Made by a program: the position numbers and the translations under genes. A stretch of DNA of 64,000 bases from NCBI GenBank assembly GCA_018268675.1, contig JAFDWB010000079.1, positions 1 to 64,000 of the forward strand, in the 5' to 3' direction. This DNA comes from Actinomycetota bacterium (GTDB taxonomy: Bacteria > Actinomycetota > Thermoleophilia > Solirubrobacterales > 70-9). Positions 8,368 to 64,000 of the stretch are shown piece after piece (positions within the stretch are counted from its first letter, which is position 1; every line of letters begins with the position of its first letter). The notes beneath the pieces were generated by a model. It did not search any database and had not been told where the DNA came from. It worked only from the letters and a program-made list of their open reading frames with translations.

Positions 8368-9050
8368 TGTACATCATCGTCGTCGGCGCCGGCAAGGTCG
8401 GTTGGAACCTCGCTCGCGAGCTGCTCGAGAAGGACCACGAGGTGACGCTGATCGAGAGCGACCGGCGCCGCTACATGACGGTCGAGCAGGAGCTCGAGCA
8501 CAACGTCTCCTACGGCGACGCGTCCGAGCTCTGGGTGCTGGAGCGGGCCGGGGTGCAGCGAGCCGACATGGTGATCGCGGTGACCGGCGACGACGAGGAC
8601 AACATGCTGATCTGCCAGGTCGCGCGCGAGAAGTACCTGGTCGACCAGATCATCGCCCGGGTCAACAACCCGCGGAACCGGCAGCACTTCGACCTGCTCG
8701 GGATCAAGCCGTCGGTGTCGGCGACGGACCTGATCCTGCGCCTCCTGGAGCACGAGGTGCCCGAGTACGGCCTCGTCCACCTGCTCGACCTGCAGGAGGA
8801 GCAGCTGGAGATCATCGAGATGCTGCTCGGCAAGGACTCGGGTGTGACCGGCCGGCGGGTCGGCGACCTGAACATGCCCGAGGGGAGCCTGCTGATCTCG
8901 GTGCTGCGGTCGGGCCGCGGCTTCGTGCCGAACGCCGAGACGGTGCTGGAAGAGGGCGACGAGGTCCTCGCCGTCCTCGATCCGGGCAAGGAGGACGAGC
9001 TGAAGGTGCTCTTCGGCCCCGAAGGCGACGGCGGCATCTCCAGTGGCTGA
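8367..9050 (+). CDS. trkA: TrkA-family potassium uptake regulator (RCK N + C domains)
   Basis: A 227-residue cytoplasmic gating subunit for a Trk/Ktr-type potassium channel. The RCK_N domain (residues 1-130) has GAGKVG and an acidic end of strand 2 (LIESDRRR). RCK_C is at about residues 145-225, with GRRVGDLNMPEGSLLISVLR. ATG 8367 overlaps the preceding TGA. No membrane Trk subunit is encoded nearby. The Glu/Asp-rich C-terminal end leads straight into the oxidoreductase gene, overlapping it by 8 bases. Confidence 0.92.
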   Translation: MYIIVVGAGKVGWNLARELLEKDHEVTLIESDRRRYMTVEQELEHNVSYGDASELWVLERAGVQRADMVIAVTGDDEDNMLICQVAREKYLVDQIIARVNNPRNRQHFDLLGIKPSVSATDLILRLLEHEVPEYGLVHLLDLQEEQLEIIEMLLGKDSGVTGRRVGDLNMPEGSLLISVLRSGRGFVPNAETVLEEGDEVLAVLDPGKEDELKVLFGPEGDGGISSG

Positions 9051-10272
9051 CCGCGAGGTCGATTTCCTCCTCGTCGGCGGCGGCATGGCCGGCGCGAGCT
9101 GCGCCGCCGAGCTGCGCAAGCAGGGGGCGGAGGGGTCGATCCTGCTGGTCGGGCGGGAGCCCGAACCGCCCTACGAACGCCCGCCGCTCTCGAAGGAGTA
9201 CCTGCGCGGGGACTCCGAGCGCGCCGAAGCCTACGTCAACGAGCCCTCCTGGTACGAGGAGAACGCGGTCGAGCTGGCGACCGGGAAGAACGTGATGGCG
9301 ATCGACGCCGAGGGGCGGACGGCGAAGGTCCAGGGTGGCGAAGAGGTCGCCTTCGGCCAGGCGCTGCTGGCGACGGGGGCGAACGTCAACATCCTGCGCC
9401 TCGAGGGGGCCGAGAACGAGGGCATCCACTACCTGCGCGCCTACGGCAACGCCGACGCGATCCGCGCCGACGCGGCGGGCGCGAAGCGGGTCGTCCTGGT
9501 CGGCGGCAGCTACATCGCCGCCGAGGTCGCCGCGTCGCTGGCGGAAGCGGGCGCCGACTGCACGATGGTGGGGCTGGAGGAGGTGGCGCTCTCGCGCACC
9601 TTCGGCGAGGACGCGGGGCGCTTCTTCCAGGAGGGGCTCGAAGCGCACGGCATCACCTATGTGGGCGGCGAATCGGCGAGCGCCTTCGAGGGCGACGGCC
9701 GGGTGAGCGCGGTGGTGACCGAGAGCGGCCGGGGCTTCGAGTGCGACCTGGTCGTGGTCGGGGCGGGGGTGAAACCGGACGTGATGCTCGCCCAGCGCGC
9801 CGGTCTCGAGGTCGACGACGGCATCGTCTGCGACTCGAAGCTCCGCGCCTCGGCGCCCGGGATCTACGCCGCCGGCGACGTCTGCAGCTACGAGAGCGTC
9901 GTCCACGGGCGGCGGATCCGGGTCGAGCACTGGGACGTGTCGATGCAGCAGGGCATGCACGTCGCCCGCAACATGCTCGGTGCGGACGCCGACTACGACG
10001 TCGTCCCCTACTTCTTCAGCGACCTCGGCGACTGGGCGAGCCTCGAGTACGTCGGCCCGGCGGCCGACTGGGACGAGGAGATCTGGCGCGGCTCCCGCGC
10101 CACCGGCGAGTTCTCGGTCTGGTACCTGAAGGCCGGCAAGGTCGCCGGCTGCCTCAGCGTCGGCCGCTCCGAAGACCTCGCCGAGGCGCGGCGCCTGCTC
10201 GCCGAGGGCATCGACGTGTCGGGCGCCGCCGACTGGATCGCCGACGCCGACGCCGATCTGTCCGGGCTGTAG
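9043..10272 (+). CDS. FAD-dependent NAD(P)H oxidoreductase, ferredoxin/rubredoxin reductase type
   Basis: A 409-residue two-dinucleotide-fold flavoprotein. The FAD motif GGGMAGASCAAEL is near residues 10-22, PPYERPPLSKEYLRG is the family signature near 46, the NAD(P)H fold VVLVGGSYIAAEVA is near 151, and IYAAGDVCSY binds FAD phosphate/flavin near 275. The C-terminal 90 residues match the reductase C-terminal domain of ferredoxin reductases for oxygenases or P450s. No ferredoxin or oxygenase gene is adjacent, so the partner is unknown. GTG 9043 overlaps trkA by 8 bases. Confidence 0.9.
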   Translation: MADREVDFLLVGGGMAGASCAAELRKQGAEGSILLVGREPEPPYERPPLSKEYLRGDSERAEAYVNEPSWYEENAVELATGKNVMAIDAEGRTAKVQGGEEVAFGQALLATGANVNILRLEGAENEGIHYLRAYGNADAIRADAAGAKRVVLVGGSYIAAEVAASLAEAGADCTMVGLEEVALSRTFGEDAGRFFQEGLEAHGITYVGGESASAFEGDGRVSAVVTESGRGFECDLVVVGAGVKPDVMLAQRAGLEVDDGIVCDSKLRASAPGIYAAGDVCSYESVVHGRRIRVEHWDVSMQQGMHVARNMLGADADYDVVPYFFSDLGDWASLEYVGPAADWDEEIWRGSRATGEFSVWYLKAGKVAGCLSVGRSEDLAEARRLLAEGIDVSGAADWIADADADLSGL

Positions 10273-10660
10273 CGACGCGGCAAAGCTGGCGCCCGATGGG
10301 AAGGGACGGGCCGTCCCGGCCACGACCCTGGCGGACTGTGGCCGTGGCCGAGACGGCCGGGTCTGCGGGGAGAGGCGGAGAGGAAGGGCCCGCACGACGC
10401 ATCAGGACGCAGGTCGGGGGAATGGGAGGTCGTCACCGTTTCTCCCGTCTTCCCCATGCCTTCCCATTGGTCAGGACCTTGCTGTGGAGCGAAACTCTCT
10501 CTATGCGCCACTAAAGCTCCACAGGCGCCCCGTCCCCGCCGTCCGTGGCCTCCTTTCCGCACGGGACCGTGACTGAAGTCCGACTTCGTGACTTCCCTGT
10601 GCCCGCTCCCATACGAACCCCTCACGCGGCTCGGACGGCCGTTATCCTGCGGGTTCGCGT
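10273..10660. repeat. Hairpin cluster 1 (family C composite, reverse orientation)
   Basis: A gene-free 388 bases that hold, in order: a 16-bp inverted repeat with one mismatch (10309-10324 with 10343-10358); a 9-bp stem CTGTGGAGC/GCTCCACAG (10482-10490 with 10516-10524); and the core word GAAGTCCGACTTC at 10574-10586. Read on the minus strand, the sequence around the core aligns with the clusters at 39.2 kb and 63.1 kb (shared words GTGAGGGG and CGAAGTCGGACTTC). Short open frames here are not convincing genes. Confidence 0.65.
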
Positions 10661-10731
10661 TGCGCCCTGGTGTAATGGCAGCACGCCTCGCTCTGGACGA
10701 GGTAGTCGGGGTTCGAGTCCCTGGGGCGCAG
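10661..10731 (+). tRNA. tRNA-Gln (anticodon CTG)
   Basis: A 71-base cloverleaf. The acceptor arm TGCGCCC pairs with GGGCGCA at 10724-10730, followed by discriminator G. The D arm contains GTGTAATGGCAGCAC, typical of bacterial tRNA-Gln. The anticodon stem CCTCG/CGAGG encloses CTCTGGA with anticodon CTG, and the T arm is CGGGGTTCGAGTCCCTG. CCA is not encoded. Confidence 0.95.
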
Positions 10732-20459: not shown

Positions 20460-22724
20460 ATGAGCGAGAACGCGCGCAAGCCGCCCTACGAGGCTGCCAA
20501 GATCGAGGCAGAGCGCCAGGCCGCCTGGGTCGAGCGGGGCGATTACGAGGCTCCCGCGCCGCCGCCCGACGGCGAGCACGGGGTCTACGTCAAGTCGTCG
20601 AGCCCGTTCACCTCCGGCAACCTCCACATGGGCCACGTGCGCGACTACACCCTCGGCGACGCCTACGCGCGCTTCCAGCGGGCGCGCGGGCGCAGCGTGC
20701 TGATGGGGTTCGGCTTCGACGCCTTCGGGCTGCCCGCCGAGCTCGCCGCGATCGAGCGCCAGGTGCCCGCCGCCGAGTGGGTCGTCCAGTCCGGCGACCG
20801 GATGCTCGAGCAGATGAAGCGGCTCGGCTACAGCTTCGACTACGACCGCGTCTTCTACAGCTCCGACGAGGGGCAGTACCGCTGGTCGCAGTGGCTGTTC
20901 CTGACCCTGTACGAGATGGGGCTGATCTACCTCGACGACGCGACCGTCGACTGGTGCGACACCTGCCAGACGACGCTGGCGACGATCCAGGTCGAGGAGG
21001 GCGGGACCTGCTGGCGCTGCCACAACGAGGTGCGGCTGATCCGCCGGCCGACCTGGTTCCTCAAGATCACGCCCTACCTGGAGGAGAACGACGCGAACAT
21101 GGCGAAGCTCGAGGCGCAGCCCTGGGACGAGCTGGCGCTCGCCACCCAGCGCTACATCCTCGGGCGGGCCGAGGGGGTGGAGGTCGACCTCGAGGGGCCG
21201 GCCGGGCGGCTCACCGTCTTCACGCCGCACGCCGACGCGGCCGGGCTCGCGACCTTCGTCCTGCTGTCGCCCCGCCACCCCGAGGTCGAGGCGTGGATCG
21301 GCGAGGCGGGGGTGCGCGAGGAGCTCGAGCAGCTGCGCTCCGGCGGCTGGGAGCGGAGCGCCCGCGACGCGCAGTCGGTGCCGGTCATCGACACCGGCCG
21401 CGCGATCCCCGGGCCAGCCGGGGAGGAGCTGCCGGTCCTGATCTCGCCGCTGGTCGACGCCCGCTTCGGCCCGACCGCGGCGCTCGGCATCCCGGCGGTG
21501 GACGAGGCCGACGCCGACATCGCATCCCGCTTCCCCGGCCGGGTCCCCGACGTCGATGGGCCGAAAACCGGACTATCTGAAGGGTTTTCGGCCCATCGAC
21601 CTGTGGAGGGGGCGCGGGCGGCGAAGCGGTACCGGGCCAACGACTTCTCGATCTCCCGCCAGCGCTCCTGGGGGACGCCGATCCCGATCGTGCACTGTCC
21701 CGACCACGGGCCGGTGCCGGTGCCGGAGGCCGATCTTCCGGTCGTGCTCCCGCGCGACCTGGTCGCGACCGGTGAAGGGAATCCGCTGGCCGAGCGCAGC
21801 GACTTCGTCGACGTGGAGTGCCCGATCTGTGGGACGCCTGCGAAGCGCGAGACGGACACGCTCGATTGCCACTTCGACGCGCTCTTCCTCTGGGTGCCGG
21901 CCACGGTGCCGCCGGAGGACCGGGCGGAGCGGATGTTCACCCACCCCGAGTCGCGCAGGTGGCTGCCCGCCGAGCGGTTGGTCGCCGGCGGGGACTCGGG
22001 CGGCTTCGTCTTCGACCAGCGGATCGTCACCAAGGCGCTCCGCGACCACGGCGAGTTCGCCTACATGGCCGACGGCGAGCCGTTCGAGGGCTGCCTCTTC
22101 CACGAGATGGTGATCGCCGACGGGCGGAAGATGAGCAAGCACCTCGGCAACGTCGTCGATCCCGACGAACTGGTCGGCCAGTTCGGCGCCGATACCGTGC
22201 GCGTGGCGGTGCTCTGGGCGGCGGGGCCGGCGAAGACCCTCAACTGGTCCGGCGCCGCGGTCCGCTTCGCCAACAAGTTCCTGCGCGGCTTCTGGACCTA
22301 CGCGCACGACCGTTTCGTCGAGCTCGACGCAGCCAGGCACGATCCGGAGAAGGCGGCGGAGACCGAGTTCATGCGCGAGCGCCTGCGCAAGTGGTGCGAG
22401 GCGGGCCTCATGCGGATCACCGAGGACACCGCCGATCTTCAGATGCACCAGTCGATCCGCAACCTGACCCGCCTCTTCGAGCGGATCCAGCAGTTCGAGA
22501 AGCAGCTGAAGAAACGCGGCCAGCTCGACCGCGCCGACGCCGAGGCCCTGGTCGCCGCGATCCTCCTCCTCGCCCGCGTCCTTCAGCCCTTCGCCCCCCA
22601 TGCCGCCGAGGCGATCCTGATCGACTCCGGCCGCTTCACCTCGGCCGACCTCCCCGGCGCCTGGCCCGACGCCGCCGCGATTCCCGTGGCCGTGGACGAC
22701 GCCCTGTCGGGCGCGGCTTCGTAG
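20460..22724 (+). CDS. leuS: Leucyl-tRNA synthetase, divergent: degenerate editing motif, no C-terminal domain, palindromic insertion
   Basis: A 754-residue class I synthetase. The HIGH-type motif is GNLHMGH near residues 55-61 and the KMSKS-type motif is KMSKH near 557. Zinc-knuckle cysteines are present (CDTC, CWRC, CPIC). Compared with E. coli LeuRS the editing threonine motif TTRPDT reads TPHADA, and the HDxRD-like motif reads VDEAD, so editing is probably lost. The protein ends just after the anticodon-binding bundle and lacks the usual C-terminal tRNA-binding domain. Residues 365-380 are encoded by a family A palindrome. This may be a second, specialised LeuRS paralogue; whether it charges tRNA-Leu cannot be told. 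Confidence 0.88.
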   Translation: MSENARKPPYEAAKIEAERQAAWVERGDYEAPAPPPDGEHGVYVKSSSPFTSGNLHMGHVRDYTLGDAYARFQRARGRSVLMGFGFDAFGLPAELAAIERQVPAAEWVVQSGDRMLEQMKRLGYSFDYDRVFYSSDEGQYRWSQWLFLTLYEMGLIYLDDATVDWCDTCQTTLATIQVEEGGTCWRCHNEVRLIRRPTWFLKITPYLEENDANMAKLEAQPWDELALATQRYILGRAEGVEVDLEGPAGRLTVFTPHADAAGLATFVLLSPRHPEVEAWIGEAGVREELEQLRSGGWERSARDAQSVPVIDTGRAIPGPAGEELPVLISPLVDARFGPTAALGIPAVDEADADIASRFPGRVPDVDGPKTGLSEGFSAHRPVEGARAAKRYRANDFSISRQRSWGTPIPIVHCPDHGPVPVPEADLPVVLPRDLVATGEGNPLAERSDFVDVECPICGTPAKRETDTLDCHFDALFLWVPATVPPEDRAERMFTHPESRRWLPAERLVAGGDSGGFVFDQRIVTKALRDHGEFAYMADGEPFEGCLFHEMVIADGRKMSKHLGNVVDPDELVGQFGADTVRVAVLWAAGPAKTLNWSGAAVRFANKFLRGFWTYAHDRFVELDAARHDPEKAAETEFMRERLRKWCEAGLMRITEDTADLQMHQSIRNLTRLFERIQQFEKQLKKRGQLDRADAEALVAAILLLARVLQPFAPHAAEAILIDSGRFTSADLPGAWPDAAAIPVAVDDALSGAAS
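21552..21600. repeat. Palindromic element family A, copy 2, inside the LeuRS coding sequence
   Basis: This 49-base element has perfect 18-base arms GTCGATGGGCCGAAAACC (21552-21569) and its complement (21583-21600), around the 13-base centre GGACTATCTGAAG. It is read in frame as VDGPKTGLSEGFSAHR, at the end of the CP1 editing insertion and before the conserved YRANDFSISRQRSWG return to the catalytic core. Confidence 0.9.
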
Positions 22725-28162: not shown

Positions 28163-28210
28163 GTTGATGGGCCGAAAACCCCTCCTATGGGCCAGTTTCG
28201 GCCGATCAAC
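28163..28210. repeat. Palindromic element family A, copy 3
   Basis: The left arm GTTGATGGGCCGAAAACC at 28163-28180 is the family consensus. The right arm (CAGTTTCGGCCGATCAAC, to 28210) is diverged, so the hairpin is imperfect. It is 48 bases, one shorter than copies 1 and 2. Confidence 0.75.
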
Positions 28211-37643: not shown

Positions 37644-39053
37644 ATGCCGAAGTCGCCGATCGCCAACCCGAGCGAGGACTACCCGCGCTGGTACCAGGAC
37701 GTGATCGCGAAAGCGGGCCTGGCCGAGAATGGGCCGGTGCGCGGGACGATGGTGATCCGGCCCTACGGCTACGCGATCTGGGAGCGCATCCAGGCCGACA
37801 TCGACCGGCGGATCAAGGCGGCGGGCGCCGACAATGTCTACTTCCCGCTCTTCATCCCGGAGAGCTACCTGCAGCGCGAGGCCGAGCACGTCGAGGGCTT
37901 CAGCCCCGAGCTGGCGGTGGTGACGATCGCGGGCGGCAAGGAGCTGACCGAGCCGGTGGTGGTGCGACCGACCTCGGAGACCGTCTTCGGCGAGCAGATG
38001 GCGAAATGGGTCAACTCTTACCGCGACCTGCCGCTGTTGCTGAACCAGTGGGCGAACGTCGTGCGCTGGGAGCTGCGCCCGCGCCTCTTCCTGCGCACCA
38101 GCGAGTTCCTCTGGCAGGAGGGCCACACCGTCCACGCGAGCGCCGCGGACGCCGCCGCCTACGCGCTGCGCATCCACCACGACGTCTACCGCGACTTCCT
38201 CGTCGACACCCTCGCGCTGCCGCCGCTGCTCGGGCGCAAGACCGCCGAGGAGCGCTTCGCCGGGGCGACCAACACGATGACCTGCGAGGGGATCACCCGC
38301 GACCGCAAAGCCCTGCAGCTGGCGACCAGCCACGAGCTCGGGCAGAACTTCGCCCGCGCCTTCGACATCGCCTACACCGACGAGGAAGGCGCGGTGCAGA
38401 CCGCGTGGACGACCTCCTGGGGCGCCTCGACCCGCCTGGTCGGCGGCCTGATCATGGGCCACGGGGACGAGCGCGGGCTGCGGCTGCCGCCGCGGATCGC
38501 CCCGACCCAGGTGGCGATCGTCGCCGTCCGCGACGAGGGCGGCGCGATCGAGGCGGCGCGCGACCTCGGCGCGGCGATCGCTGCCGCCGGCGCCCGGGTC
38601 AAGGTCGACACCGACACCCACACCGGCTTCGGCCGCCGCGCCGTCGACTGGGAGCTGAAAGGGGTGCCGCTGCGCATCGACCTCGGCCCCCGCGATCTCG
38701 CCGAGGGCCAGGCGACCGTGGTTCGCCGCGACACCGGCGAGAAGCTCCCGGTCCCGCTGGCCGAGCTGCCGGGCCGGGTCGAGCCGCTGCTGAACGAGAT
38801 CCAGGCGGCGATGCTCGGCGAGGCGACCGCCTTCCGCGAAGCCGCCACCACCGACGCCGCCACGGTCGAGGAGGCACTCGAGGCCGGCCGCCAGGGCGTC
38901 GGCCGGATCGAGTGGGCCCGCCTCGGCTCCGACGGCGAGCGCCGCCTCCTCGACGAGGGCGTCAGCGTCCGCTGCATCCAGCGCCCCGACGGCACCGTCC
39001 CCGCCTCCGAGGACGAGCCCGACCTGGTCGCGATCGTCGCCCGGGCGTATTAG
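37644..39053 (+). CDS. proS: Prolyl-tRNA synthetase, eukaryote/archaeal-like (short) type
   Basis: A 469-residue class II synthetase. VRGTMVIRPYGYAIWERIQ (about 32-50) and VVRPTSETVFGEQMAKWV (motif 2 region, about 108) are typical of the eukaryote-like ProRS, as is the YCxxxxx-type C-terminal extension ending in VAIVARAY. It lacks the bacterial editing insertion between motifs 2 and 3. It charges tRNA-Pro with proline. A hairpin cluster follows its stop. Confidence 0.94.
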   Translation: MPKSPIANPSEDYPRWYQDVIAKAGLAENGPVRGTMVIRPYGYAIWERIQADIDRRIKAAGADNVYFPLFIPESYLQREAEHVEGFSPELAVVTIAGGKELTEPVVVRPTSETVFGEQMAKWVNSYRDLPLLLNQWANVVRWELRPRLFLRTSEFLWQEGHTVHASAADAAAYALRIHHDVYRDFLVDTLALPPLLGRKTAEERFAGATNTMTCEGITRDRKALQLATSHELGQNFARAFDIAYTDEEGAVQTAWTTSWGASTRLVGGLIMGHGDERGLRLPPRIAPTQVAIVAVRDEGGAIEAARDLGAAIAAAGARVKVDTDTHTGFGRRAVDWELKGVPLRIDLGPRDLAEGQATVVRRDTGEKLPVPLAELPGRVEPLLNEIQAAMLGEATAFREAATTDAATVEEALEAGRQGVGRIEWARLGSDGERRLLDEGVSVRCIQRPDGTVPASEDEPDLVAIVARAY

Positions 39054-39113
39054 GGGTTGGTTCCGTAGGGGACGGCCGAGGGTCCCGGCCGTTGCCGCCG
39101 TCCGAGGTGGTCT

Positions 39114-39163
39114 CGGGCGCCTCATGGGGGTCCTGGCAGGCTGTGACCCCCATGAGACGCCCG
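39114..39163. repeat. Long hairpin, 19-base arms
   Basis: CGGGCG-C-CTCATGGGGGTC (39114-39132) pairs with 39145-39163 with one mismatch around a 12-base loop. It is the longest stem of cluster 2 and has no counterpart of the same sequence in clusters 1 or 3. Confidence 0.75.
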
Positions 39164-39273
39164 GGACGTGAGGGGTTTCGTGTGGGAGAAGGCACGGGGA
39201 CGGCCGAAGTCGGACTTCCGTGACCCTTCGTTGTGAGGGGAGCGCCCGGGGAGGCGCGGGAATCGAGGCCCGG

Positions 39274-39329
39274 GGACGCGCTGCAAGGATTCAGGTCGTC
39301 ATAGCGACACCAACCCTTGCAGCGCGTCC
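39274..39329. repeat. 15-bp perfect hairpin in cluster 2
   Basis: GGACGCGCTGCAAGG (39274-39288) pairs perfectly with CCTTGCAGCGCGTCC (39315-39329), with a 26-base loop. Confidence 0.75.
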
Positions 39330-39392
39330 TCAGCGTCTGAGGAACACGGGAGGAACCGTGACGGGCCTCCCCTCTACCCGACCTGACCTCGT

Positions 39393-39437
39393 CCAGCTGT
39401 TCCTTATGGTCGATATACCGGCATAAGGAACAGCTGG
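39393..39437. repeat. Terminal hairpin D, copy 1
   Basis: CCAGCTGTTCCTTATG (39393-39408) and its exact complement (39422-39437) flank the 13-base centre GTCGATATACCGG. Copy 2 at 63265-63309 is identical except for one centre base. Confidence 0.9.
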
Positions 39438-39514
39438 GACCGAGGGTGCGCTCCTATGACTCCCCGCGATCCCTCCTCCCGCCGGCTTCCCCGCCTGAAG
39501 CCCGTGGAAACGCC

Positions 39515-39889
39515 CTAGGCTTCCCGCCCGTAGCGGTCGCGCAGCCGCACCACGTCGTCCAGGTGTGGCGTCGAGACCTCCAGGACCACCGAGTCCTCGA
39601 GCGCCTCGATCGTGTGGACCGTCCCCGGCTCGACCCGCCAGGCGAACCCGGGGCCGACGTCCTCGCTCGTCAGGTCGTCGGCACTCGGGCCGCGGGTGAG
39701 ACGCAGCCGCCCCGACAGGACGTAGGAGGACTCGTCCTTCTCGCGATGCAGCTGGAGTGAGAGGCCCTGGCCGGCGTCGACGTGGAGGAGCTTGCCGGCG
39801 TAGTGGGGCGTCTGCGCCCACCAGAGCTCGAATCCCCACGGCTTCTCGACGCGGCGGGGCTCGGCGCTGGGCGTGGGGGCGGTCGGCAC
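39515..39889 (-). CDS. Cupin-domain, phosphomannose-isomerase-like protein
   Basis: A 124-residue single-domain cupin. VEKPWGFELWWAQT is followed by the metal-site-like SLQLHREKDESSYVLSGR (His and Glu ligands, residues about 43-60) and the second cupin motif PGTVHTIEALEDSVVLEV. It resembles the type II mannose-6-phosphate isomerase domain without the nucleotidyltransferase. It is probably a sugar-phosphate isomerase or epimerase-like protein, perhaps in cell-surface sugar metabolism. Confidence 0.82.
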   Translation of the reverse strand: MPTAPTPSAEPRRVEKPWGFELWWAQTPHYAGKLLHVDAGQGLSLQLHREKDESSYVLSGRLRLTRGPSADDLTSEDVGPGFAWRVEPGTVHTIEALEDSVVLEVSTPHLDDVVRLRDRYGREA

Positions 39890-61736: not shown

Positions 61737-63007
61737 CGGGCGCTGATCCGACGCGGCAGCGTCCCACCGCGAGCTATGAGGCCGATCCGTCCCAGGTGGA
61801 CAGGGTCCTGCTGCTCTATTCGGGCGGCCTCGACACCAGCGTGATGCTGAAGTGGATCCAGGATTCCTACGACGCCGAAGTGGTGACGCTGACGGTCAAC
61901 CTCGGGCAGCCGGGGGAGGACTACGAGGTGATCGAAGACAAGGCGAAGCGGCTGGGCGCGGTCGAGTGCCACGTGGTCGATGCCCGCGAGCAGTTCGCCG
62001 CCGAGTTCCTCGCCCCGGCGATCAAGGCGAACGCGGTCTACGGCAACGGCTACCCGCTGTTCACGGCGCTCGGCCGGCCGCTGATCGCGCAGCTCGCGGT
62101 CGAGTACGCGCGCCGGTCGAACTGCGACACGATCGCCCACGGCTGCACCGGCAAAGGCAACGACCAGGTGCGGATCGAGGCCACGGTGGCGACGCTGGCG
62201 CCGGAGCTGCGGACGATCGCGCCGGTGCGCACCTGGGCGATGGGGCGCGACGAGGAGATCGCCTACGCCCGCGACCACGGGATCCCGGTGAAGGGCGGGA
62301 CCGAGGTGGCGCCGTATTCGATCGACGACAACCTCTGGGGGCGCTCCTCGGAGGGCCGCTGGATCGAGGATCTGGAGCACGCGCCCGAGGACGACGTCTT
62401 CCAGCTGGTGACGCGGCCCGAGGAGGCACCGGACGAGGCGCAGGTGGTGAGGATCGGTTTCGAGGCCGGGCTGCCGGTGTCGATCGACGGCGAGCGGCTC
62501 GGCCTGGTCGACCTGCTCGAACGGGCGGCCGCGCTGGGGATCCGCCACGGGGTCGGGATCGTCGACCACATCGAGGACCGGATCGTCGGCCTCAAGGTGC
62601 GCGACATCTACGAGGTGCCGGCGGCGGCCCTGATCCTGACCGCGCACGAGGAGCTCGAGCGCCTGGTCGGCACGATCCACCAGAACCAGTTCAAGCCCCA
62701 GATGGACCAGCGCTGGGGATACCTCGTCTACGCCGGCCTCTGGTGGGAGCCGCTGCGCGAGGACCTCGACGCCTACATGTCGGCGGTCAACGCCCGGGTC
62801 ACCGGCGAGATCGGCCTGCGCCTCTACAAAGGCAGCGTCCGCGTCGTCACCCGCTCCTCCCCGAACGCCGTCTACGACGCCTCCCTCGCGAGCTTCGCCG
62901 CCTCCGGCGAAGAGCTCTTCTCCCAGACCTCGTCCCCAGGCTTCATCGAGCTCTGGTCCCTGCAGTCCCGCCTGGCCCACCAGCTGCGGGAAAGGGACGG
63001 GGGGTAG
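61733..63007 (+). CDS. argG: Argininosuccinate synthase
   Basis: A 424-residue enzyme that joins citrulline and aspartate. The PP-loop LLLYSGGLDTSVM (residues 26-38) and TIAHGCTGKGNDQVRIE near 128 are diagnostic. The start ATG overlaps the upstream gene. argF and argH are not encoded in the window; argR is also absent here. Confidence 0.95.
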   Translation: MTGADPTRQRPTASYEADPSQVDRVLLLYSGGLDTSVMLKWIQDSYDAEVVTLTVNLGQPGEDYEVIEDKAKRLGAVECHVVDAREQFAAEFLAPAIKANAVYGNGYPLFTALGRPLIAQLAVEYARRSNCDTIAHGCTGKGNDQVRIEATVATLAPELRTIAPVRTWAMGRDEEIAYARDHGIPVKGGTEVAPYSIDDNLWGRSSEGRWIEDLEHAPEDDVFQLVTRPEEAPDEAQVVRIGFEAGLPVSIDGERLGLVDLLERAAALGIRHGVGIVDHIEDRIVGLKVRDIYEVPAAALILTAHEELERLVGTIHQNQFKPQMDQRWGYLVYAGLWWEPLREDLDAYMSAVNARVTGEIGLRLYKGSVRVVTRSSPNAVYDASLASFAASGEELFSQTSSPGFIELWSLQSRLAHQLRERDGG

Positions 63008-63558
63008 GCGGCGGCTTTTGCGCCCGTCCGAGGTGCATCCTGGACGTGAGGGTCCGTGGGGAGCGAACAGGGACGGCACGAAGTCGGACTTCCGTGACGG
63101 TCCTCGCGAGGAGGGGAGCGCTCCCGAGGCCGGGGATCGAGGGGCCCGGAGACCCGCTGAGTGAGTTTTCCACCGTATAGGGGGGCAAAGTCACGCAGCG
63201 TGATTTCACCTTGCCATGTGGCGACCCAGATCCTCGCAGCGCGTTCTCCCCGACCTGGCGCCGTCCAGCTGTTCCTTATGGCCGATATACCGGCATAAGG
63301 AACAGCTGGACGGAGGGCGTCCTCCTGACCAGGACGAGGTCCCCGATCTTCCCGACGTCTATGTCACGAGTTCCCGCTTCGGTGACGGACCCGCGCCGCC
63401 GTCACACTCCCGCGACCCTTCCTCCGCACCCGGCGTCCCGCTGTCGAACTCACCCCGGCGCGCCCCGCCGCCTTCCCTTCCGGACCCTGAAACTTTTGTG
63501 TCGCTTTATCGTCAACTAGCCGGGGAAAAGAGGGGGCGGCGCTAGCCTCGATGCCGCT
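63008..63558. other. Hairpin cluster 3, gene-free
   Basis: A 551-base gap. It holds the core word CGAAGTCGGACTTCCG (63079-63094), a perfect palindrome TCCTCGCGAGGA (63101-63112), a stem around TCACGCAGCGTGA (63191-63203), and hairpin D copy 2 (63261-63313). From about 63314 to 63558 I see no repeat or gene; the bases just before 63559 are AT-richer and may contain the promoter of the next gene. Confidence 0.7.
63265..63309. repeat. Terminal hairpin D, copy 2
   Basis: CCAGCTGTTCCTTATG (63265-63280) and its complement (63294-63309) flank GCCGATATACCGG. The stem extends outward to 63261-63313, giving a 20-bp perfect inverted repeat. One centre base differs from copy 1 at 39393. Confidence 0.9.
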
Positions 63559-64000
63559 TTGGCGTCGGCTCGGACCAGATCGGATCCCTTCGCCCTGGTC
63601 GGCGCGGGGGCGCTGCTCGGGGTGCTCGTGGCGCTCGTGTTGGCGCTGGCGCCGGGGGCGCGGGCGGCGGATCGAGGGAAGCTGGAAGCGAGATTGGCCG
63701 CGGGGCGTGAAGAAGCGAGCGCTCTGGCGGGGCAGCTGCAGGCGAGCCAGGCCGAACTGGCGGGCGCCGAAGCGGAAGCGGCGCGGGCCGAAAAGCACGA
63801 GGAACGGCTGTCGGGCCTGCTTGCCGAAGGCGAAGCGCGGGAGGCGCAGCTGAGCGAGGAAGTGGCGACGACGCGGCGCCGGCTGGCAGTCGAGAAGGCG
63901 CGCCTGCGGCGCTCGCACGCGGCGCTGGCGGCACGGGTCGTGGCGATCTACGAGAGCGGCGTGCCGGAAACCGCGAACCTGATCTTCGGCTCCGGCAATT
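63559..64000 (+). CDS. Exported coiled-coil protein, probable peptidoglycan hydrolase N-terminus (3' truncated)
   Basis: Open frame from TTG 63559 to the window end, 147 residues shown. A signal peptide (GALLGVLVALVLALAPGARA-AD) is followed by a long Ala/Glu/Arg coiled coil (RGKLEARLAAGREEASALAG and on) and then RVVAIYESGVPETANLIFGSGN. That layout is typical of septal PcsB/RipA-like hydrolases whose catalytic domain (NlpC/P60, CHAP or M23) would lie beyond the window. It is preceded by a weak AT-rich promoter-like stretch. Confidence 0.72.
   Translation, partial: MASARTRSDPFALVGAGALLGVLVALVLALAPGARAADRGKLEARLAAGREEASALAGQLQASQAELAGAEAEAARAEKHEERLSGLLAEGEAREAQLSEEVATTRRRLAVEKARLRRSHAALAARVVAIYESGVPETANLIFGSGN

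Follow-up and report, generated by a model that had tools for sequence, protein, structure and literature searches.

The stretch of DNA analysed here (hereafter the window) comprises 64,000 nucleotides (nt) of contig JAFDWB010000079.1 from an Actinomycetota bacterium (genome G000), and near 10, 39, and 63 kb it carries clusters of palindromes behind gene ends, raising the question of what these clusters are and why they share a core word. A preliminary description had listed five palindromes at 39 kb, and these correspond to three long hairpins, a near-palindromic core, and an outer stem near 39070 (GGACGGCCG/CGGCCG). The core word and GTGAGGG(G) flank that it had reported as common to the three clusters were present in each: the core word CGAAGTCGGACTTC occurs exactly at 39205–39218 (+), 63079–63092 (+), and 10575–10588 (−), and the flank starts 33–37 bases 5' of it in all three. 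When up to two mismatches to the core word were allowed, there were six matches in the window compared to 0.79 expected, and none of 100 shuffles reached six; because the core word is a near-palindrome, each site is counted twice in this figure. Based on the data presented below, the clusters are probably copies of a non-coding, non-autonomous mobile element of 0.3–0.7 kb, the ends of which are recognised as a folded strand. Most likely, this element resembles known small repeats but constitutes a new family, restricted to one clade.

A search of the whole genome for the core word, as proposed in the preliminary description, revealed further clusters, with at least 74 copies. The exact word occurs 27 times (reversed control, 0), and a core model produced 74 matches in G000 and 138 in genome G006 (150 candidates scored per genome). 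A pattern for the terminal hairpin H1 that left the stem letters free matched 44 times in G000, 184 times in G006, 45 times in G007, and once in G011, with no match to the reversed control in 12 genomes. These copy numbers are lower bounds, because contigs end in elements and the repeats limit assembly; many contigs of G006, G007, and G008 end within an element or right at H1. To the left of the element in locus L085, long G runs are found near the contig end and are probably an assembly artefact. Alignment of the 27 exact copies with their flanks (26 of the 27 were used in one alignment, which left out L015) displayed a modular, non-coding element of 0.3–0.7 kb between genes, with its parts in the order GCCGTCCGAG, an optional H1, GTGAGGGG, the core, a palindrome of type A or type B, GAGGAAGACGGGAGGAA, an optional H3 palindrome, and, further on, the terminal hairpin H4. 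There are at least two alternatives for the middle part (type A and type B), modules are missing in many combinations, and most copies are partial. When nine copies were each compared with all 67 at every position, repeat depth fell to zero outside the element.

Within the window, copy 1 (39054–39514, +) takes up the whole gap between proS (37644–39053, +) and a convergent cupin-like gene (39515–39889, −), and repeat depth is zero outside it. On the + strand, in addition to the core, it contains H1 at 39108–39169 (stem of ~23 bp, loop CTGGCAGGCTGT; a hairpin scan gives 39114–39163 and a stem of 19 bp), the flank word GTGAGGGG at 39168–39175, a type A palindrome (GGACGCGCTGCAAGG..CCTTGCAGCGCGTCC) with an 18-bp stem at 39274–39329, and H3 (CCAGCTGTTCCTTATGG..CATAAGGAACAGCTGG) with a 16-bp stem at 39393–39437. 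Copy 2 (63008–63488, +) lies 3' of the gene at 61796–63007, lacks H1, and has H3 at 63261–63313 (+); its right end is approximate, with a conserved flank, CGCTTTATCGTCAACTAGC, from ~63490. Copy 3 (10273–10641, −) extends from the stop codon of the gene at 9043–10272 (+) to TTATCC 5' of a transfer RNA (tRNA) at 10661. It also lacks H1, and has a type B palindrome (CTGTGGAGC..GCTCCACAG) at 10482–10524 (−) and H4 at 10309–10358 (−), the loop of which is that of H1 in inverted orientation. The cluster limits given previously proved too narrow, as the clusters reach further and occupy nearly the entire gap between the neighbouring genes. In addition, not every palindrome is present in all three copies: H1 is found only at 39 kb, H4 only at 10 kb, and the CAGCTGTTCCTTATGG palindrome only at 39 and 63 kb.

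The equivalent sites in sister species lack these copies. Within the genus, six mutually close genomes have 86–90% proS identity to G000, while the other six have 52–53% (two genomes) or no match at the cut-off (four genomes). The comparison of sites was restricted to relatives in which both neighbours are adjacent; in the others, a neighbour was non-adjacent, not found, or cut off by a contig end. In all eight sister-species comparisons at the three window sites, the spacers measured 6–192 bp compared to 461–614 bp in G000: at 39 kb, 18 bp in G006 and 6 bp in G007 versus 461 bp; at 63 kb, 139 bp in G007, 135 bp in G008, and 192 bp in G011 versus 614 bp; and at 10 kb, tRNA included, 177 bp in G006, 122 bp in G003, and 176 bp in G011 versus 492 bp. 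The same flanking genes are thus close together in sister species, and the copies therefore look like insertions. At the empty 10 kb site of G003, the stop codon runs straight into TTATCC, which defines the insert of copy 3 as 10273–10641. G006 has a reverse-oriented copy at the 63 kb site, seemingly a separate insertion event. Where G000 has the element 3' of proS, a palindrome resembling GTGTCGAGTTT..AAACTCGACAC is located in G003 and G011 (L143, L144).

Copies of the element also have a characteristic gene context. None of the 67 G000 cores lies inside a called gene (genes were called with our own codon model, trained on 29 open reading frames of the window). Both neighbours were in view for 57 of the 67 copies; they were convergent for 30 copies, co-directional for 24 (13 in one orientation and 11 in the other), and divergent for 3. 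Similar loci in G006 numbered 10 convergent, 3 co-directional, and 0 divergent (13 loci), and in G007, 7 convergent, 7 co-directional, and 0 divergent (14 loci). The convergent excess had p = 0.00016 against all 56 gaps of the window and p = 0.075 against the 21 gaps of at least 100 bp, and the shortage of divergent gaps was still significant against the latter (p = 0.003); the baseline gaps include the three element sites.

A location immediately 3' of stop codons and between convergent gene pairs is also what would be expected of two-way terminators, or guards of messenger RNA 3' ends, employed by the host at convergent gene pairs and spread because of their usefulness. The absence of an orientation preference between co-directional genes is consistent with such a role, as is the occurrence of other, unrelated palindromes at the same sites in relatives (after proS in G003 and G011, and at 63 kb in G008 and G011). 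When each cluster was folded as RNA, a check put forward in the preliminary description, all three were more stable than shuffles, and the 39 kb copy folds very stably; the extra stability was clear for this copy (z = −6.9 for 39054–39514) and modest for those at 63 kb (z = −2.8) and 10 kb (z = −2.2). On the other hand, no hairpin followed by a T-run was detected in 39000–39560 or 62950–63620, and T-run terminators were dropped as a candidate for these two scanned regions. Moreover, sister species lack copies at the same gene pairs, and a fixed 12-nt loop shared by two inverted hairpins is not needed for termination. We consider a terminator or 3'-end guard unlikely as an explanation for the family.

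This shared loop is found at both ends of the element. H1 and H4 have different stems but share one 12-nt loop, which is inverted in H4 relative to H1. In G000 and G006, 87 loci contained 113 loop hairpins: 63 of H1 type before the core on the + strand, 49 of H4 type after the core on the − strand, and a single flipped H1 (L115). Seven loop hits had a poor stem; one of these is L121, an H1 with a one-base stem deletion, and the rest are two-mismatch hits resembling chance matches. For G003, G008, and G011, H1 was present in 20 of 20 loci and an inverted H4 in 13 of 20, the others being cut by a contig end or without H4. Overall, inverted H1 and H4 with the shared loop were seen in all six genomes that carry the element. 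In G008, the H1 and H4 stems are nearly identical in sequence, as would be the case had the two hairpins originated as inverted repeats.

The preliminary description had suggested selection on structure, and had proposed covariation between relatives as evidence for it. Among 79 H1 hairpins from three species (all but two of the 81 H1-strand loop hits, the two being chance hits in genes), double changes occurred at 10 of 23 pairs, in 111 cells compared to 38.6 ± 8.5 for shuffled alignments and no more than 19 for slid controls. For 22 rows selected across six species, double changes were seen at 9 of 23 pairs, with 43 cells versus 13.4 shuffled and at most 3 in slid controls, even with the G008 rows off by one at two pairs, which counts against structure; the H1 stem thus covaries across all six species. 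Covariation of H4 was weaker, at 6 of 19 pairs and 16 cells versus 3.8 shuffled (slid controls, up to 7). The H4 set consisted of 56 of 60 hits on the other strand, after removal of the flipped L115 H1 and of three chance hits; one chance hit in a gene (L177:1173) was kept and slightly lowers the result. For the core, a double change was seen in only 1 of 11 pairs; the core is nearly invariant, having served to select the rows, and was dropped as evidence of structure. Selection on structure is therefore supported by the strong covariation and kept loop of H1 and, more weakly, by H4, but the core provides almost no covariation evidence.

Stems are uniform within species and differ between species: the free stem letters are mostly CGC/GCG for G006, AGG/CCT for G007, and either GGG/CCC or CGG/CCG for those G000 copies that were inspected. 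A fixed loop on stems that are free to change while remaining paired suggests that the folded hairpin, and not the duplex sequence, is the signal. On the loop-forward strand, A.C mismatches outnumber G.T mismatches for both H1 (43 vs 9) and H4 (42 vs 6), or 27 vs 14 when counted by pair positions (p = 0.06). Since an A.C mismatch on this strand is a G.T wobble on the other, one strand of each end may be the one that folds, although this is only a hint.

Covariation of H1 and H4, a conserved loop, and stable folds could equally reflect an RNA function, with each copy encoding a structured non-coding RNA that has a cellular role. The inverted loops of H1 and H4 argue against this, because a single transcript would contain the two in opposite senses, and the A.C excess hints at opposite strands for the two hairpins. 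Furthermore, H1 or H4 is freely missing, centres are flipped, and there is no Rfam match: above the gathering score, the window yielded three tRNAs only and seven element loci yielded nothing, so a known RNA family was dropped as a candidate. We find an RNA-encoding family quite improbable. A terminator or RNA role is possible for single copies, and would leave the inverted loops and empty sites unexplained.

Between the ends, interior palindromes are swapped wholesale between copies and species at one position, and flipped centres were observed for H1 in L115 (1 of 42 scored in G000), H3 in L082 (1 of 20), and type A in L026 (1 of 18). The H3 word occurs at 45 places, some of which are both arms of one palindrome; 13 further places are mostly partial elements, while L219 and L228 show no other element part and L221 has no gene gap. 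The G006 copies have tandem repeats outside both ends, and in L124, L129, and L132–L138 the end modules are in tandem (e.g., a 36-bp unit ~4 times in L137), indicating that copies also grow by local duplication. The mosaic of mobile palindromes envisaged previously is borne out in part, in that modules are present, missing, exchanged, or flipped from copy to copy, L219 and L228 stand alone, and sister sites are empty.

Given that most copies are partial and that the family is common to all six carriers, the clusters might instead be decayed relics of one ancient element whose spread was due to segmental duplication and which are now disappearing, with no present or recent transposition. In that case, however, flanking genes would be expected to be duplicated along with the copies, and they are not, with repeat depth zero at the element edges. 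Additionally, H1 stems that are homogeneous within species and different between them imply recent spread or conversion. Of the alternatives weighed, this one appears the least probable, and we give it very little credence.

Two other palindrome families were noticed in the window. One, of 48 bp (GTTGATGGGCCGAAAACC..GGTTTTCGGCCCATCAAC), is located at 1751–1799, 21552–21600, and 28163–28210, the copy at 21552 lying inside a called gene (20460–22724); it also occurs within elements of G007 (L181) and G003 (L205) and, in varied form, of G011 (L213). The other (GGTGAGTTCGCA..TGCGAACTCACC) is often found by gene ends, at ~1820 and just before 28163 in the window and in L206, L223, L225, and L227. 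G008 and G011 also have it at their 63 kb site, and in G011 its TGA is the stop codon of the gene.

The element has a narrow distribution. Among 232 genomes from the order, six had H1 model matches (at least 22 each), all six belonging to one clade; with the core model, 4 of the 50 family genomes had matches at E ≤ 1e-4, as did 6 of the 12 genus genomes at E ≤ 0.01. Within the genus, carrier genomes are 3.8–4.7 Mb in size and non-carriers 2.4–3.4 Mb. The 39 kb copy had no match in phages or plasmids and the H1 pattern none in viral contigs, and a phage or plasmid origin was dropped. A 19-base core match in a Burkholderiaceae bin (L046) was taken as chance, as there is no element around it and it reads like coding sequence. 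Literature searches confined to open-licence papers turned up no account of this hairpin element family.

Several results weigh against a mobile element. Y1_Tnp (PF01797) had no matches in G000 or in the five other carriers at E ≤ 0.001, compared to 5 positives among 14 control genomes, although a Y1 gene may have been missed as the carrier genomes are 84–97% complete; mobilisation by RAYT or IS200 transposases was accordingly dropped. No transposase was present among the 25 commonest of 134 Pfam families in 116 proteins neighbouring G000 copies (183 for all loci), where a single transposase among the rarer families would be missed because only the 25 commonest were inspected. The commonest neighbour families (25 of 134 Pfam and of 56 PHROG) are ordinary metabolic ones, and a transposase gene beside the copies was dropped as a candidate. 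An insertion sequence with matching ends was not found, Y1 being the only transposase for which the genome was searched. The one empty site with sharp edges shows no target-site duplication, and AAGGGACG-like terminal repeats outside the hairpins are present in G000 but not at the 5' ends in G007, for which reason this outer repeat, suggestive in G000 only, was dropped as a hallmark of the family. The covariation cells are not independent because the copies are related. Loss in several relatives, instead of gain in the G000 lineage, formally stays an alternative, and restriction to one clade together with presence in all six of its genomes could indicate a resident function.

Nevertheless, copy number, insertion at short gaps, inverted ends, and the scarcity of divergent sites are together best read as the traces of a non-autonomous mobile element. 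A full copy would consist of the outer stem, H1, the core, one or more exchangeable palindromes, and H4, with H1 and H4 acting as inverted repeats that have the same loop inverted and stems free to change while paired. An enzyme supplied in trans would recognise each end as a folded single strand, by its stem and fixed loop, and insert copies into the chromosome. Insertions would survive where they do little harm, just 3' of stop codons and chiefly between convergent genes, and would be presumably neutral to the host; resident copies could then gain, lose, swap, and flip modules via recombination and slippage at palindromes. Since no Y1 transposase was found in the carriers, the known route of repetitive extragenic palindromic (REP) sequences seems not to be available now; a REP-type enzyme may have been lost, or another enzyme may act. 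More tentatively, and in our estimation doubtful at present, the ends may be recognised by hairpin shape and the 12-nt loop by a mover that is not of the Y1/HUH type, with unrelated palindromes collected as cargo.

Comparison with known systems suggests a new family, because none of the REP, bacterial interspersed mosaic element (BIME), BOX, miniature inverted-repeat transposable element (MITE), or palindromic terminal inverted repeat (TIR) types fits all of the features tested. PMC3733652 and PMC8266576 describe REP/BIME/REPIN sequences, which have RAYT (TnpA-REP) transposases, as high-copy intergenic palindromes of alternating orientation that are clustered, lie mostly between convergent and co-directional genes, and are recognised as folded single-stranded DNA (see also PMC2817692 and PMC3116915). 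The present element is likewise a high-copy intergenic palindromic repeat with few copies between divergent genes, but it has no conserved GTAG foot at H1 or H4 (the foot columns are variable in alignments read by eye), stems of 19–23 bp, a 12-nt loop that is fixed while the stem is free, and no Y1 transposase found in six carriers. REPs tagged with CGTC, according to part of PMC3733652, are palindromic repeats without a dedicated transposase and have 8–9 bp stems and 4–5 nt loops, in contrast with the 23- and 19-pair stems and 12-nt loop here; the CGTC foot, moreover, is not kept in G006 or G007. Pneumococcal BOX elements are portrayed in passages of PMC3049150 as modular, with a variable number of inner modules, a stable fold, and a convergent-gene excess, and as thought to be parasitic. 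Inner modules are similarly present, absent, or repeated between copies here, but the inverted hairpin ends with a shared loop and the unrelated inner palindromes differ from BOX, a likeness drawn from description and not from boxA/boxB/boxC sequence. TIRtrons have TIRs of which some are self-complementary and form repeat families, and their TIRYTs have HUH and the catalytic tyrosine of the IS200/IS605 group (PMC3733652), whereas no Y1 protein was found in the carriers here. Finally, the element is short, non-coding, and intergenic (0 of 67 cores in genes) and has inverted ends, as do bacterial MITEs, among which Correia, RUP, and Nezha are named in part of PMC3049150, but it is GC-rich, with no target duplication seen and no matching insertion sequence found.

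The 4.7 Mb genome of G006 has no fewer than 184 H1 hairpins, and assemblies break at copies of the element. Small palindromic repeats occur in many bacteria, and where there is evidence for a mobilising enzyme, it mostly belongs to a single class. The six sister species studied here, with the same loop and different paired stems, amount to a natural experiment. If the loop is in fact the recognition signal, it would provide a direct handle for finding the mobilising protein, and whether such repeats are parasites or kept gene-end insulators would become testable.
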